NCBI GenBank assembly: GCA_024710005.1
Contig: JANJVQ010000032.1
Span: 1-64,000, forward strand
DNA from: Paludibacter sp.
GTDB lineage: Bacteria; Bacteroidota; Bacteroidia; Bacteroidales; Paludibacteraceae
Reading direction: 5' to 3'
Length of the DNA stretch: 64,000 nt
Numbering within the stretch: position 1 is the first letter of the stretch; the number at the start of each line of letters is the position of its first letter. The translations under genes and the position numbers were made by a program. Of the stretch, positions 45,801 through 57,948 are shown one piece after another. The notes below the pieces were generated by a model that did not search any database, had not been told where the DNA came from, and was given only the letters and a program-made list of their open reading frames with translations.

Positions 45801-46438
45801 GCTTCGGCGGATTAGACCACGTGCTTGCTTCCGGTAAAAATGTGAACATCTTAGTATTGGATACTGAAGTTTATTCGAACACAGGTGGACAGGCATCCAA
45901 ATCGACTCCGGTTGGTGCCGTTGCCAAGTTTGCAGCATCCGGAAAACGTGTTCGCAAGAAAGACCTGGGTATGATTGCTGCCACTTATGGATATGTATAT
46001 GTAGCTCAGATCGCGCTGGGAGCTAATCAGGCTCAGGCATTGAAAGCCATCCGCGAAGCAGAAGCATATGACGGACCATCTGTAATCATTGCTTACTCAC
46101 CTTGTATCAGTCACGGACTCGTTGCCGGTATGGGCAGTTCAAACGGCGAACAACAGGAAAAAGCTGTAAAATCAGGATATTGGCATCTGTATCGTTATAA
46201 TCCGGCTTTGGAAGAAGAAGGTAAAAACCCGATGCAGCTGGATTCGAAAGAACCGCAATGGGATATGTTCCAGGACTTCCTCCGCAGTGAAGTGCGTTAC
46301 ACCTCTCTGTTGAAGCAGTTCCCTGAAGCTGCCAAAGAACTGTTCCTCGCAGCCGAAGACAATGCCAAATGGCGTTACGCGTGGTACAAACGCATGAGCG
46401 AACAACATTTTGCGGCACCGGTTGTTGAGACACCCTAA
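42881..46438 (+). CDS. nifJ: Pyruvate:ferredoxin (flavodoxin) oxidoreductase
   Basis: A single-chain PFOR of 1185 residues that oxidises pyruvate to acetyl-CoA and reduces ferredoxin, the anaerobic alternative to pyruvate dehydrogenase. The N-terminal YPITPSSTMAEYVDEWA motif, two [4Fe-4S] motifs (CIQCNQCAYVCPHA near residue 690 and CMGCDNCAEVCPG near 745), the distal CAGCGETPY and the TPP-binding GDGWAYDIGFGGLDH are all seen. The last codons GAG ACA CCC TAA are the beginning of a REP palindrome (46427-46449), so the C-terminal residues ETP and the stop were supplied by the repeat. Confidence 0.97.
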   Translation: MAKQKKFLTCDGNQAAAHIAYMFSEVAAIYPITPSSTMAEYVDEWAAKGRKNMFGETVQVQEMQSEGGAAAAMHGALQAGALTSTFTASQGLLLMIPNMYKVAGELLPGVYHVSARALASHALSIFGDHQDVMAVRQTGCAMFATGSVQEVMDLAAVAHLASIKSRIPFVHFFDGFRTSHEIQKIEEIDQDAVTALIDQDALADFRNRALNSESPVVRGTAQNPDIYFQAREACNPFYDAVPGIVENYLDELAKITGRNYGLFDYYGDPEADRVVIAMGSATEAIREGIDYLMAKGEKVGLVSVHLYRPFSAKHFLSVLPKSAKRICVLDRTKEPGAGGEPLYLDVKDVLYGAENQPLVVGGRYGLSSKDFTPSQVLSVFENLALPSPRNQFTVGIVDDVTFTSLPMKEEIPMGGEGIYEAKFYGLGADGTVGANKNSIKIIGDNTDKYCQAYFAYDSKKSGGFTCSHLRFGDTPIRSTYLVTTPDFVACHVQAYLRLYDVTKGLKKNGTFLLNTVWTAEEVKNNLPINVKRYLAKNNIKLFIINATNIAQEIGLGHRTNTILQSAFFKITNVIPYELAVKEMKNAIVKSYGKKGEKVINMNYAAVDRGGEYTVVDVPAEWANLVDENDIIDSNIPDFIKNIVVPVNKQAGDDLPVSVFKGREDGTWIQGTTKYEKRGVAATVPVWEMENCIQCNQCAYVCPHAAIRPFILDEAEQANAPFASLKANGKQFAGMTYRIQVDVLDCMGCDNCAEVCPGNKNGKALKMVPIETQYENQDNWDFCVENVKTKQHLVDVKANVKNSQLATPLFEFSGACAGCGETPYVKLVSQLFGERQIVANATGCSSIYSASAPSTPYTTNDEGRGPAWANSLFEDNAEFGLGMLFANEQMRDRIERLMTAAINENCCSDELKGLFAEWIENKNDGDKTLELAAKIKPLVKEGKCAYCKEISGLSKYLVKQSQWIIGGDGWAYDIGFGGLDHVLASGKNVNILVLDTEVYSNTGGQASKSTPVGAVAKFAASGKRVRKKDLGMIAATYGYVYVAQIALGANQAQALKAIREAEAYDGPSVIIAYSPCISHGLVAGMGSSNGEQQEKAVKSGYWHLYRYNPALEEEGKNPMQLDSKEPQWDMFQDFLRSEVRYTSLLKQFPEAAKELFLAAEDNAKWRYAWYKRMSEQHFAAPVVETP

Positions 46439-46561
46439 TAGGGCGTCTGCATGTGTCAATGCGATAAAAAATATAACACCGTAGAGACGCCCTAATAGGG
46501 CGTCTCTTTTATTAACGAAATGCAAATGTGCATGACAGAGACGCCCTAATAGGGCGTCTCT
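46427..46561. repeat. REP palindrome array left of the RAYT gene
   Basis: Three palindromes with the core GACGCCCTAATAGGGCGTC lie at 46427-46449 (one change, GACACCC), 46483-46507 and 46537-46561. The last two are preceded by ATATAACACCGT and by GCAAATGTGCATG respectively, sequences that recur in the array right of the RAYT gene. Confidence 0.9.
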
Positions 46562-46619
46562 ACGTTTGTGCAATATTGAAAATGATGCAAAATTGATTTG
46601 AAAATAATGCGCAATACAA

Positions 46620-47258
46620 TCATCGTTCAAAAAATTGGTCATCAACCCATTTCAATGGATTATTGATAATGTATTGTTCTATACGAACATATGATTCATG
46701 ATTTCTGATGATATGGTCGTAAAAACGGGTTTGCCATGCAAAATGTGGATTGATTCTGCGTATATCGATGGTTATTTTCCGTTTGTACTGATTGATAATA
46801 ACGCCCAATGTTTCAGGTTTCCATTTTTTTGATGCCGCCTTTGTTTGTTTTATTGTAGAGACGCCCGAATCGGGCGTCTCTAGGTTTTGCAAATCGGGCG
46901 TCCGTACGTTTTGCAAATCGGGCGTCCGTGCGTTTTGCGAATCGGGCGTCCGTACGTTTTGCGATTCGGGCGTCCGTACATTTGGTTTATCAATTATCAC
47001 AATCCCATGAATATGATTCGGCATAATCACAAATGCACCTAAATGTACATACGGAAAATGTGCCGGAATTTCTGTCCAATATTGTTGTGCAATTTTTCCA
47101 ATTTCTGATAATTCAATTTTCCCCTCAACGATTTTCCCAAAATAACATGTGTGTTTTTGTGTGCAGATGGTTACAAAATAGGGGGCATTCCACCCATAAT
47201 CCCAATTCTGCATACGTGTAGATAGTATACGAAATCGATTGAAAAATTTTTCATTCAT
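46620..47258 (-). CDS. REP-associated tyrosine transposase (RAYT), IS200-like
   Basis: A Y1-type transposase of 212 residues (ATG at 47256-47258; an upstream start at 47297 is also open). The first half has the NWDYGWNAPYFVTICTQKHTCYFG start typical of Bacteroidetes RAYTs and the HUH motif in VIMPNHIHGIVII. The second half carries INQYKRK with the probable catalytic tyrosine, followed by WQTRFYDHIIRNHESYVRIEQYIINNPLKW. Between them sits a repeat-derived linker of about 40 residues built from five NVRTPDLQ-like octapeptides. The gene lies in an array of REP palindromes it probably mobilises, between convergent nifJ and surE. Confidence 0.93.
   Translation of the reverse strand: MNEKFFNRFRILSTRMQNWDYGWNAPYFVTICTQKHTCYFGKIVEGKIELSEIGKIAQQYWTEIPAHFPYVHLGAFVIMPNHIHGIVIIDKPNVRTPESQNVRTPDSQNARTPDLQNVRTPDLQNLETPDSGVSTIKQTKAASKKWKPETLGVIINQYKRKITIDIRRINPHFAWQTRFYDHIIRNHESYVRIEQYIINNPLKWVDDQFFER
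46857..46980. repeat. REP palindrome and 24-bp tandem repeats inside the RAYT reading frame
   Basis: A complete palindrome of the GACGCCCGAATCGGGCGTC kind (46857-46881) is followed by four 24-bp units (46885-46908, 46909-46932, 46933-46956, 46957-46980). Each unit contains TCGGGCGTCCGTA, one arm of the palindrome. As 24 is a multiple of three the frame stays open and encodes octapeptides such as NVRTPDLQ. Confidence 0.92.
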
Positions 47259-47327
47259 GATTTGTAATAGGTTAATTTGTTTGTAAACAGGATGCAAATA
47301 TAATCAAAATTGATTATATAACACCGT

Positions 47328-47463
47328 AGAGACGCCCTACCAGGGCGTCTGTTTAATAAATGTGCAAATTGGTGGTATTATTGTAGAGACGCCCTAATAG
47401 GGCGTCTATTATATTATGGCAATGCAAATGTGCATGGTAGAGACGCCCTAATAGGGCGTCTCT
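47328..47463. repeat. REP palindrome array right of the RAYT gene
   Basis: Palindromes at 47328-47350 (core GCCCTACCAGGGC), 47385-47407 and 47439-47463. The first is preceded by ATATAACACCGT and the last by GCAAATGTGCATG, in the same order as on the left. The two flanks therefore form a direct duplication around the transposase. Confidence 0.9.
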
Positions 47464-47465
47464 AC

Positions 47466-47527
47466 ACGTTATCGCGTTATTGAATTATCGCGTTATTAAA
47501 TTATCGAATAATTGAATTATCGAATTA
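47466..47527. repeat. 8-bp tandem repeat running into the 3' end of surE
   Basis: About eight consecutive units of the type TTATCGCG, TTATTGAA and TTATCGAA. The last ones include the stop codon and final codons (AIIR) of surE. Confidence 0.75.
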
Positions 47528-48293
47528 TGGCATCCATCACCCCCCGCAATTCCCCCAAATATTCATGCGCCGTCATATCAATCTTGGTCGGTACAACAGA
47601 CACGTAATCATTGGCCAGCGCCCATTCGTCGGTATCCTGCGCTTCGGGTTCGTGGTTATCGAAGTAGCCGGTTAGCCAATAGTAGTTGCGACCATGGGGG
47701 TCGGTGGCCCTTGCAAATTCCTTTGTCCAGTGCCCCTCGCACTGACGGGCTATCTTCACACCTTTAATCGCAGCTTTAGGTGCGTTTACATTCAGACAGA
47801 TACCATAAGGTAAACCGTTTTTCAATATCTGTCGGGCTATTTGGAGTATATAAGGTTCAAAAGCAGAAAAATCAGCATCCGGATCGAAATTGGAGATGGA
47901 ATAACCTATCGATGGTATAGCATTCTCACATCCTTCCAGCACAGCCCCCATCGTTCCTGAATAAATAACATTGATAGCTGCATTGGAACCGTGATTGATT
48001 CCGGATACCAGTAAATCGGGCTTCCGGTGTAACACCTCATTCAACGCCAGCTTCACACAGTCTGTGGGAGTTCCGTTGCAGGAGTACCGAATCAGTCCGG
48101 GTTTATCTTCCAGCTTCTTAAAACGAATCGGATGGTTTACAGTAAGCGCGTTCGATTGACCAGAACGGGGTCCATCCGGCGCCATCACCACAACATCTCC
48201 AATTTCCATCATCAACTTTGTTAATACATTAATTCCTTTGGCTGTATCGCCATCATCATTGGTAATCAGGATCAACGGTTTCTTTTCTGACAT
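47517..48293 (-). CDS. surE: 5'/3'-nucleotidase SurE
   Basis: A 258-residue phosphatase acting on nucleoside monophosphates. The metal site begins with ITNDDG at residue 10, and the SGINHGSN and SGTMGAVLEG segments are conserved. The length is typical. It is the last gene of a minus-strand operon with lpxH, a DUF59 gene, a thioesterase, an O-methyltransferase and an M16 peptidase. Its 3' end merges with an 8-bp tandem repeat. Confidence 0.95.
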   Translation of the reverse strand: MSEKKPLILITNDDGDTAKGINVLTKLMMEIGDVVVMAPDGPRSGQSNALTVNHPIRFKKLEDKPGLIRYSCNGTPTDCVKLALNEVLHRKPDLLVSGINHGSNAAINVIYSGTMGAVLEGCENAIPSIGYSISNFDPDADFSAFEPYILQIARQILKNGLPYGICLNVNAPKAAIKGVKIARQCEGHWTKEFARATDPHGRNYYWLTGYFDNHEPEAQDTDEWALANDYVSVVPTKIDMTAHEYLGELRGVMDAIIR

Positions 48294-55060: not shown

Positions 55061-55462
55061 ATGGAAGAACTTACACTAATAACACCGACATTTTTATTTT
55101 CAGCGGTTTCGTTGATACTGTTGGCATACACGAATCGTTTCTTGTCGTATGCCCAATTGGTTCGAAACCTGAAGGATAAGTACATGGTGGATCGTTCGGC
55201 CATTACCAAAGCACAGATTATGAACCTGCGTAAAAGGCTGGCCCTGACAAAATACATGCAACTTTGCGGTGTGGTGAGTTTATTGCTGTGCGTGGCAACG
55301 ATGTTCCTGATTTACCTGGGATCGCAGATTCTTTCAGCATATATATTCGGACTGGCCCTACTGTTATTAATCATCTCACTGGGATTGTCGGCCTGGGAAA
55401 TACAGATTTCTGTAAAATCGCTTAAGCTGCATTTGAGTGATATGGAAGAGCGAACAGAATAG
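55061..55462 (+). CDS. DUF2721 family membrane protein
   Basis: A 133-residue small membrane protein with three hydrophobic segments (ITPTFLFSAVSLILLAYT, LCGVVSLLLCVATMFLIYLG, and YIFGLALLLLIISLGLSAW), which is the DUF2721 plan. Function is unknown. The C-terminal stop codon overlaps the first unit of a heptamer tandem array. A dispersed repeat fills the whole upstream spacer, so its promoter is unclear. Confidence 0.85.
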   Translation: MEELTLITPTFLFSAVSLILLAYTNRFLSYAQLVRNLKDKYMVDRSAITKAQIMNLRKRLALTKYMQLCGVVSLLLCVATMFLIYLGSQILSAYIFGLALLLLIISLGLSAWEIQISVKSLKLHLSDMEERTE

Positions 55463-55544
55463 TGGTTAGTGGTCAGTGATTAGTGATTAGTGGTCAGTGG
55501 TTAGTGGTTAGTGGTCAGTGGTCAGTGGTCAGTGGTTAGTGGTT
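55461..55544. repeat. Heptanucleotide tandem array (12 units)
   Basis: Twelve 7-bp units of AGTGGTT, AGTGGTC or AGTGATT run without interruption from the DUF2721 stop codon toward nadE. Only two unit positions vary. Confidence 0.9.
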
Positions 55545-57527: not shown

Positions 57528-57948
57528 TTTTTAAATTGAACAACCATTCGCCACCAACGATTAATATGCCCCGACAATATCGGATACCCCCGTAGGGGCA
57601 GGGTTCACCCCTGCCCTGATAATATCATTTGCAATAGGGGTAATGTCATCCCCATTTGGGGCAACCATGTTTCCATTTGGGGAAACCGTGTTCCCAATAT
57701 AGGGGCAACCGCAAGGGTTTGCCCCTACGGCGGCGGGATTCGTCAATAATATGATGGCATGGATATGGTTTGGCATTATTTGAAACACGTCCAATTCTAT
57801 ATTTGGGTAACGTTCGGGTAATTTCATCCATTCATCAAATGCAATTTGCCCATATTGATTCACTTCACACTGATACCTGTTATCTGCAATCTCGCTGAAA
57901 CGGTATTTGCCAACTACAATCCCACGCTTTCTTTTTCGATTTTTCTCC
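57528..57948 (-). pseudogene. RAYT (IS200-like) pseudogene with REP-type insertions
   Basis: Reading 57948 to 57561 on the minus strand gives GKYRFSEIADNRYQ, QIAFDEWMKLPERYPNIELD and the HUH motif MPNHIHAIILL, followed by a repeat-filled linker and SDIVGAY, then a TAA stop (57561-57563). The frame continues past it with SLVANGC before a second stop. The family sequence GAYKSLVANGC indicates that a lysine codon AAA became TAA. The N-terminal part before GKYRF (the usual FITICVQNR region) and the whole C-terminal catalytic half are missing. The linker contains palindromes of a GTAGGGGCA...TGCCCCTAC type. Confidence 0.8.
57588..57735. repeat. GTAGGGGCA-type palindromic repeats in the dead RAYT
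   Basis: GGGCAGGG-TTCA-CCCCTGCCC near 57594-57617 and GGGGCAACC-GCAA-GGGTTTGCCCC near 57702-57727 are strong hairpins. Two imperfect direct repeats of CCATTTGGGG lie between them. This is a different repeat family from that at 46.4-47.5 kb. Confidence 0.75.

Follow-up and report, generated by a model that had tools for sequence, protein, structure and literature searches.

Within the window, i.e., the whole 64,000-nucleotide stretch of Paludibacter sp. DNA that was analysed, a gene for a REP-associated tyrosine transposase (RAYT) lies among REPs that share one stem and itself contains a REP and a tandem array (Table 1). The ORF runs on the minus strand from the ATG at 47258 to the stop codon at 46620-46622, with no internal stop. 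A TTG start listed at 47297 is not needed, and several relatives start near the equivalent of the ATG.

Table 1. Features of the RAYT locus (positions in the window; TRF, tandem repeat search)
Feature	Position	Strand	Basis
REP overlapping the nifJ-like gene at its final codons and stop	46424..46449		repeat search, locus comparison
Flanking REP pair, inverted orientation	46481..46563		repeat search; 46475-46570 folds with z -12.1
RAYT (TnpA-REP) gene, 212 aa, HUH (MPNHIHG) and Tyr (EQYIINNP) halves	46620..47258	-	ORF, NF047646, motifs, structure
Linker between beta3 and alphaC holding REP and array, 59 residues (90-148)	46815..46991	-	alignment, AlphaFold2
Complete in-frame REP palindrome, 27 bp, 13-nt arms, 1-nt centre, TAGAGACGCCCGAATCGGGCGTCTCTA	46856..46882		direct reading, repeat search
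Array of four 24-bp units, each made of one REP arm and a spacer, VRTPDLQN-like octapeptides	46884..46979	-	direct reading, TRF
Lone flanking REP with a TACCA centre, upstream of the gene	47326..47350		repeat search
Second flanking REP pair, other side of the gene	47383..47465		92% direct repeat of 46481-46563

The NCBIfam profile NF047646 (REP-associated tyrosine transposase) matched the predicted protein over two stretches, with an E value of 4e-13 and 49.5 bits. The 80-bit cut-off of this profile was not reached, a shortfall that is one of score threshold and not of any trait that defines a RAYT. A Pfam search of the protein returned no match at E 1; PF01797 matches 24 of 39 aligned family members. 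Both the HUH motif (at MPNHIH) and the single tyrosine with NP (in YIINNP) that mark a RAYT are present, and in a 39-row alignment N81, H82, H84, Y196, I197 and N200 are invariant, with P201 found at 90% or more. In an AlphaFold2 model built on these 39 rows, the core blocks are mostly above 95 pLDDT. The Y1 transposase fold expected of a RAYT was recovered, with the top PDB match being 4ER8, the structure of a RAYT in complex with a REP hairpin (TM-scores 0.47 and 0.59; 15% identity), followed by the ISDra2 and IS608 transposases. These results bear out the preliminary description of the locus, which had named the gene as a RAYT with both catalytic halves.

The likeness to the E. coli TnpA-REP (4ER8) thus extends to the Y1 HUH fold and to the flanking by REPs. 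Insertions between beta3 and alphaC are, however, confined to subclasses 2.3 and 2.4, with the E. coli enzyme belonging to subclass 2.2 (PMC6006769). The NHIH, AWQ and YIINNP of the window protein fit the motifs NH[IFV]H, WQ and YIxNNP given for subclass 2.4 in that paper, and an insertion of the variable kind, with an in-frame REP, likewise lies between beta3 and alphaC. The named closest relatives are mostly Bacteroidota MAGs. The gene is best read as an intact RAYT belonging to the kind termed subclass 2.4 (group 4), sitting among its REPs.

Same-stem REPs around the gene and elsewhere

Seven REPs with the same stem are found at the locus when the internal copy is counted. Six lie outside the gene, including two 83-bp pairs that bracket it as 92% direct repeats. 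At up to two mismatches, 13 sites were found in the genome, namely, the seven at the locus and six dispersed copies; as is characteristic of a RAYT, REPs that flank the gene hence also occur dispersed. Judged by the longest frames (100 aa or more), all six dispersed copies are intergenic, with plausible genes on either side; one of them falls within an apparently spurious stop-to-stop frame of 159 aa.

The centres of the external REPs at the locus are TATTA (or its complement TAATA) in five of six cases and TACCA in the copy at 47326. The internal REP is instead centred on GATTC, differing from the external centres on both arms. In the frame of the internal copy, a TATTA centre would be read as TAT TAG, and TAATA as TAA, so that either would bring in a stop; with GATTC, different on both arms, pairing and frame are preserved alike.

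With exact arms, this REP type occurs in two of 48 genomes of the genus, that of the window (G000; nine sites) and G052 (11 sites), both of which carry this RAYT. In G052, the five flanking REPs have a TATTA or TAATA centre, as do all 10 exact-arm sites of that genome other than the internal copy. Across the exact-arm sites, the stop-free GATTC centre was found in the internal copies of the two genomes and at only one intergenic site, on contig C25 of G000. No GAGAC-GTCTC palindrome was found around the neighbouring gene of the C25 site in three relatives, where the intergenic DNA is unalignable. Comparison of the site itself did not trace the C25 REP to the internal copy, as the intergenic DNA of G052, G010 and G057 fails to align over it and the G059 contig begins too late.

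For the history of the RAYT site, 44 matches were obtained in 43 genomes and 30 fetched loci were examined. In G052 (nifJ end 96% identical), the RAYT and REPs are present downstream of the gene; in G059 (93%), nifJ adjoins surE, with neither a RAYT nor REPs between them. The other 27 of the 30 loci end early or show no surE, RAYT or REP-stem match downstream, and are not comparable at this site.

Several minor features were noted here as well. The end of the nifJ-like gene differs in G052 and G059, with no REP at that point in either. At 46481-46515, a REP followed by TTTTATT resembles an intrinsic terminator, and G059 has a different hairpin and T-run between nifJ and surE; the REPs may have replaced a terminator. 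Beside a flanking REP pair, an AT-rich tandem repeat of 8/16 bp spans 47469-47528.

The palindrome and 24-bp array inside the gene

The preliminary description had placed a complete REP palindrome at 46857-46881 and four 24-bp units at 46885-46980. Palindrome and units are real, although both sets of coordinates needed correction (Table 1), that of the array by one base. The insert also corresponds, as claimed, to the REPs of the RAYT itself, its stem being that of the flanking REPs. By TRF, the array has a 24-bp period and 4.8 copies over 46868-46983 (91% matches; score 176). The internal REP has a GTAG foot on the plus strand (46855-46858), the sense strand bearing CTAG instead. Each unit comprises one REP arm and a spacer: comparison with the intact-foot REP arm (AATCGGGCGTCTCTAC) revealed 14, 13, 14 and 13 of 16 bases in common, with the remainder of each unit being spacer. 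On the sense strand, the unit feet are GTAC in three cases and GCAC in one, with none being GTAG. Given that a CTAG foot lowers and GTAC abolishes cleavage in S. maltophilia (PMC8266576), the one-arm units are probably no substrate of the enzyme.

The frame survives the array, as had been noted earlier, the ORF being open end to end and encoding the octapeptides VRTPESQN-VRTPDSQN-ARTPDLQN-VRTPDLQN-LETPDSGV. The internal REP is read as LETPDSGVST, and the four units adjoin it on the amino-end side. Three codons vary among the four units and every one of these changes is amino-acid-changing, as expected for a free linker. Modelling of the linker, which had been proposed together with a comparison of orthologs, predicts disorder (pLDDT below 50 at residues 97-109 and 113-143).

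The insert goes beyond what chance would yield, given that region 46845-46990 folds with z-scores of -4.4 and -5.6 for the two strands, that 60 dinucleotide shuffles of the window linker all fell short of its 13-nt arm and that seven REPs of the same stem lie in the locus.

Only one other close ortholog, that of G052, was found among the fetched loci, sharing 92% and 95% identity with the window RAYT in the two halves; the next, that of G059 (L148), shares 73% and 60%. In terms of octapeptide number, the G052 ortholog (L138) has the same GATTC-centred internal REP, accompanied by two one-arm units instead of four. The internal REP of L148 is of a different type, showing that the REP type is able to change or be replaced. 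Over 151 core codons, comparison of the window gene with the G052 ortholog yielded a dN of 0.028 and a dS of 0.150, values that point to a core evolving under purifying selection; the corresponding linker comparison covers 43 codons.

Internal REPs in related RAYTs

From 139 profile-matching ORFs, removal of 17 lacking a motif and 11 duplicates left 111 distinct intact relatives, the loci comprising the best 80 of 443 confirmed and further sets, four loci of the window's own genome among them. A linker palindrome with an arm of at least 8 nt was found in 82 of the 111, as opposed to four of 111 in each of the equal-length upstream and downstream stretches of the same genes, a prevalence that may be inflated in that the query alignment rows came mostly from loci already known to hold palindromes. 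In the remaining 29, both catalytic halves are still present. The longest linker palindrome arm averaged 10.7 nt, compared to 4.8 in dinucleotide shuffles. Tandem arrays with a TRF score of at least 50 were detected in the linkers of 44 of the 111 relatives, compared to one upstream and no downstream stretch, and in 43 of these 44, the period is a multiple of three; lowering the cut-off to 30 gave 51 linkers and 11 and three of 111 controls. Arrays in which each unit holds only one REP arm were also seen in L138, L137, L066, L055, L069, L086, L097 and L028. The half-REP array is hence not confined to the window.

The manner in which the internal palindromes are read was next considered for 78 linker palindromes with arms of at least 9 nt, whose centres fall into phases of 42, 18, 16 and two. 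Of the 60 with even length, 42 share one phase (mostly VET..SL) and the other 18 a second (mostly RD..VST); among the 18 with odd length, 16 share one phase (often VET..VST) and the other two a further one. Two of the six possible phases are empty; in those, the TAG of the GTAG foot would be a stop. Five palindrome cores are read in two phases across relatives, with one 20-nt core giving VETRHALSLQ in some and RDKACLVS in others. It is therefore common DNA, and not a common peptide, that explains the internal REPs. On the core tree, phase changed at least 19 times, below the mean of 32 for shuffled labels, such that reading phase is partly inherited. Presence of a palindrome (arm of at least 9 nt) changed at least 23 times, the same as the minimum among 100 shuffles (mean 28.7).

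Internal REPs share on average 0.74 identity with their own flanks, as compared to 0.59 with those of other loci, a value matched in none of 10,000 permutations in a test that ignores kinship. Identity to the own flank was 0.9 or higher at 27 of the 78 loci, as opposed to 1.6% of foreign comparisons. At 51 of the 78, the flank of some other locus matched the internal REP better than did its own, because REP types recur. At 46 of the 78, no cognate was found at 80% identity within 1 kb, although cognates more distant or with diverged centres would escape this search. In G006, a genome that is 95% complete, the sole copy of its internal REP found at up to two mismatches is that inside the RAYT (C21:19443-19464). 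Stem pairing is 0.97 in internal REPs and 0.90 in flanking cognates, a comparison biased upward by the internal ones having been chosen for pairing.

In-frame REPs inside the gene had already been published for subclass 2.4 TnpA-REPs (Quentin et al., 2018; PMC6006769). The central claim of the preliminary description, which had presented the arrangement as exceptional, is accordingly a class feature of subclass 2.4 that was already known, and the palindromes seen in most relatives speak likewise. With subclass 2.4 (Bertels group 4) as portrayed in that paper, the window RAYT shares its motifs, the variable insert between beta3 and alphaC, in-frame REPs, double-foot REPs, short repeats in the insert domain and Bacteroidetes hosts. 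Going beyond the passages of PMC6006769 that describe the subclass are the one-arm 24-bp array, the use of palindromes in two phases and internal REPs without flanking cognates; for the one-arm array, no paper was found among the open-licence PMC literature. New here are the controlled quantification, the two-phase test, the ortholog array comparison, the empty site in G059 and the internal-only loci. In-frame palindromic repeats in coding genes are also described for intragenic REPs and the Rickettsia palindromic elements (PMC3733652 and works cited therein). Those treated in PMC3733652, however, sit in unrelated host genes, whereas here the host is the presumed transposase of the repeat itself, and unlike those intragenic elements, the dispersed copies in the window genome are intergenic.

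Probable origin and possible retention of the internal REP

The best explanation for the locus, and one considered likely, is that an intact subclass 2.4 RAYT underwent in-frame insertion of its cognate REP, followed by slippage of one arm in 24-bp steps. Tolerance of the disordered loop for 3n-base inserts would have let a cognate REP enter it in frame, either through the activity of the RAYT or through conversion with flanking REPs as the source. One arm would then have been duplicated and subsequently amplified through slippage, with only 3n changes surviving in the loop.

As to why internal REPs are present, an explanation given somewhat less than an even chance is neutral tolerance in cis, whereby REPs land most often near the gene of their own transposase and in-frame hits survive in the disordered loop, where they pile up and decay without being used. 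The concentration of palindromes and arrays in the linker, the amino-acid-changing nature of all three varying unit codons and the frequent changes in palindrome presence on the tree are all in line with such tolerance, and the authors of PMC6006769 suggest there to be little impact on protein activity. Continual resupply is not seen, however, at the 46 loci without a detected cognate within 1 kb or in G006 with its single copy, and the well-paired internal stems, albeit selected for pairing, also sit poorly with decay.

It is conceivable, if tentative, that the internal REP is instead kept as a frame-locked copy of the presumed substrate of the enzyme, one that moves along with the gene and is able to seed REPs anew. 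Those same 46 loci and the internal-only G006 were counted for a retained seed, as they reflect persistence without flanks. More doubtful is the full version, in which selection would hold the enzyme and its REP family together across transfer or REP loss, with the gene serving as the donor that refounds dispersed REPs; the GATTC centre at a lone intergenic site offers a hint of the gene acting as donor. Against purposeful retention stand the 29 relatives without a palindrome, the frequent changes on the tree and the 51 loci with a better foreign flank, as do the missing foot of the window's internal REP, the amino-acid-changing unit codons and the other REP type of L148. The matching of REP families to their transposases, and the way in which such families start anew once lost or transferred, could be tested directly in a subclass that often carries its presumed substrate in its own frame, and the internal-only loci show where selection on the internal REP could be tested.

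Autoregulation, in which the internal hairpin, as single-stranded DNA or mRNA, would be bound by the enzyme and so limit expression or direct the enzyme to its own locus, is improbable. A strong hairpin does lie inside the gene and linker palindromes recur in most relatives in several phases, yet a sizeable minority lacks the palindrome, and RAYTs are not known to bind RNA, which also counts against this proposal.

Still less credible is the idea that selection maintains the octapeptides encoded by the REP as a protein module. Although the octapeptides are alike within the window, the reading of one core in different phases and the predicted disorder of the linker largely refute a function at the peptide level, which was set aside. 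The notion of a dead copy, with the array as the sign of a transposase in decay, for which a RAYT relic some 10 kb away might be cited, was likewise set aside as very improbable, since the frame is open, the conserved motifs are kept and core dN/dS relative to the G052 ortholog is about 0.19.

Other repeats and RAYT copies were also encountered. The relic (L010; window 57546-57899, minus strand) is a second RAYT, truncated and with a stop; in its linker are REP-like palindromes of a different type, together with a tandem array of 21-bp units at 57651-57710. Elsewhere in the same genome, on contig C17, a second open RAYT frame (L008) contains an internal REP of a different type, GGGGCAGGG...CCCTGCCCC. 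Finally, a 7-bp tandem repeat, TAGTGGT, is present in about 12 copies at 55460-55544 of the window.
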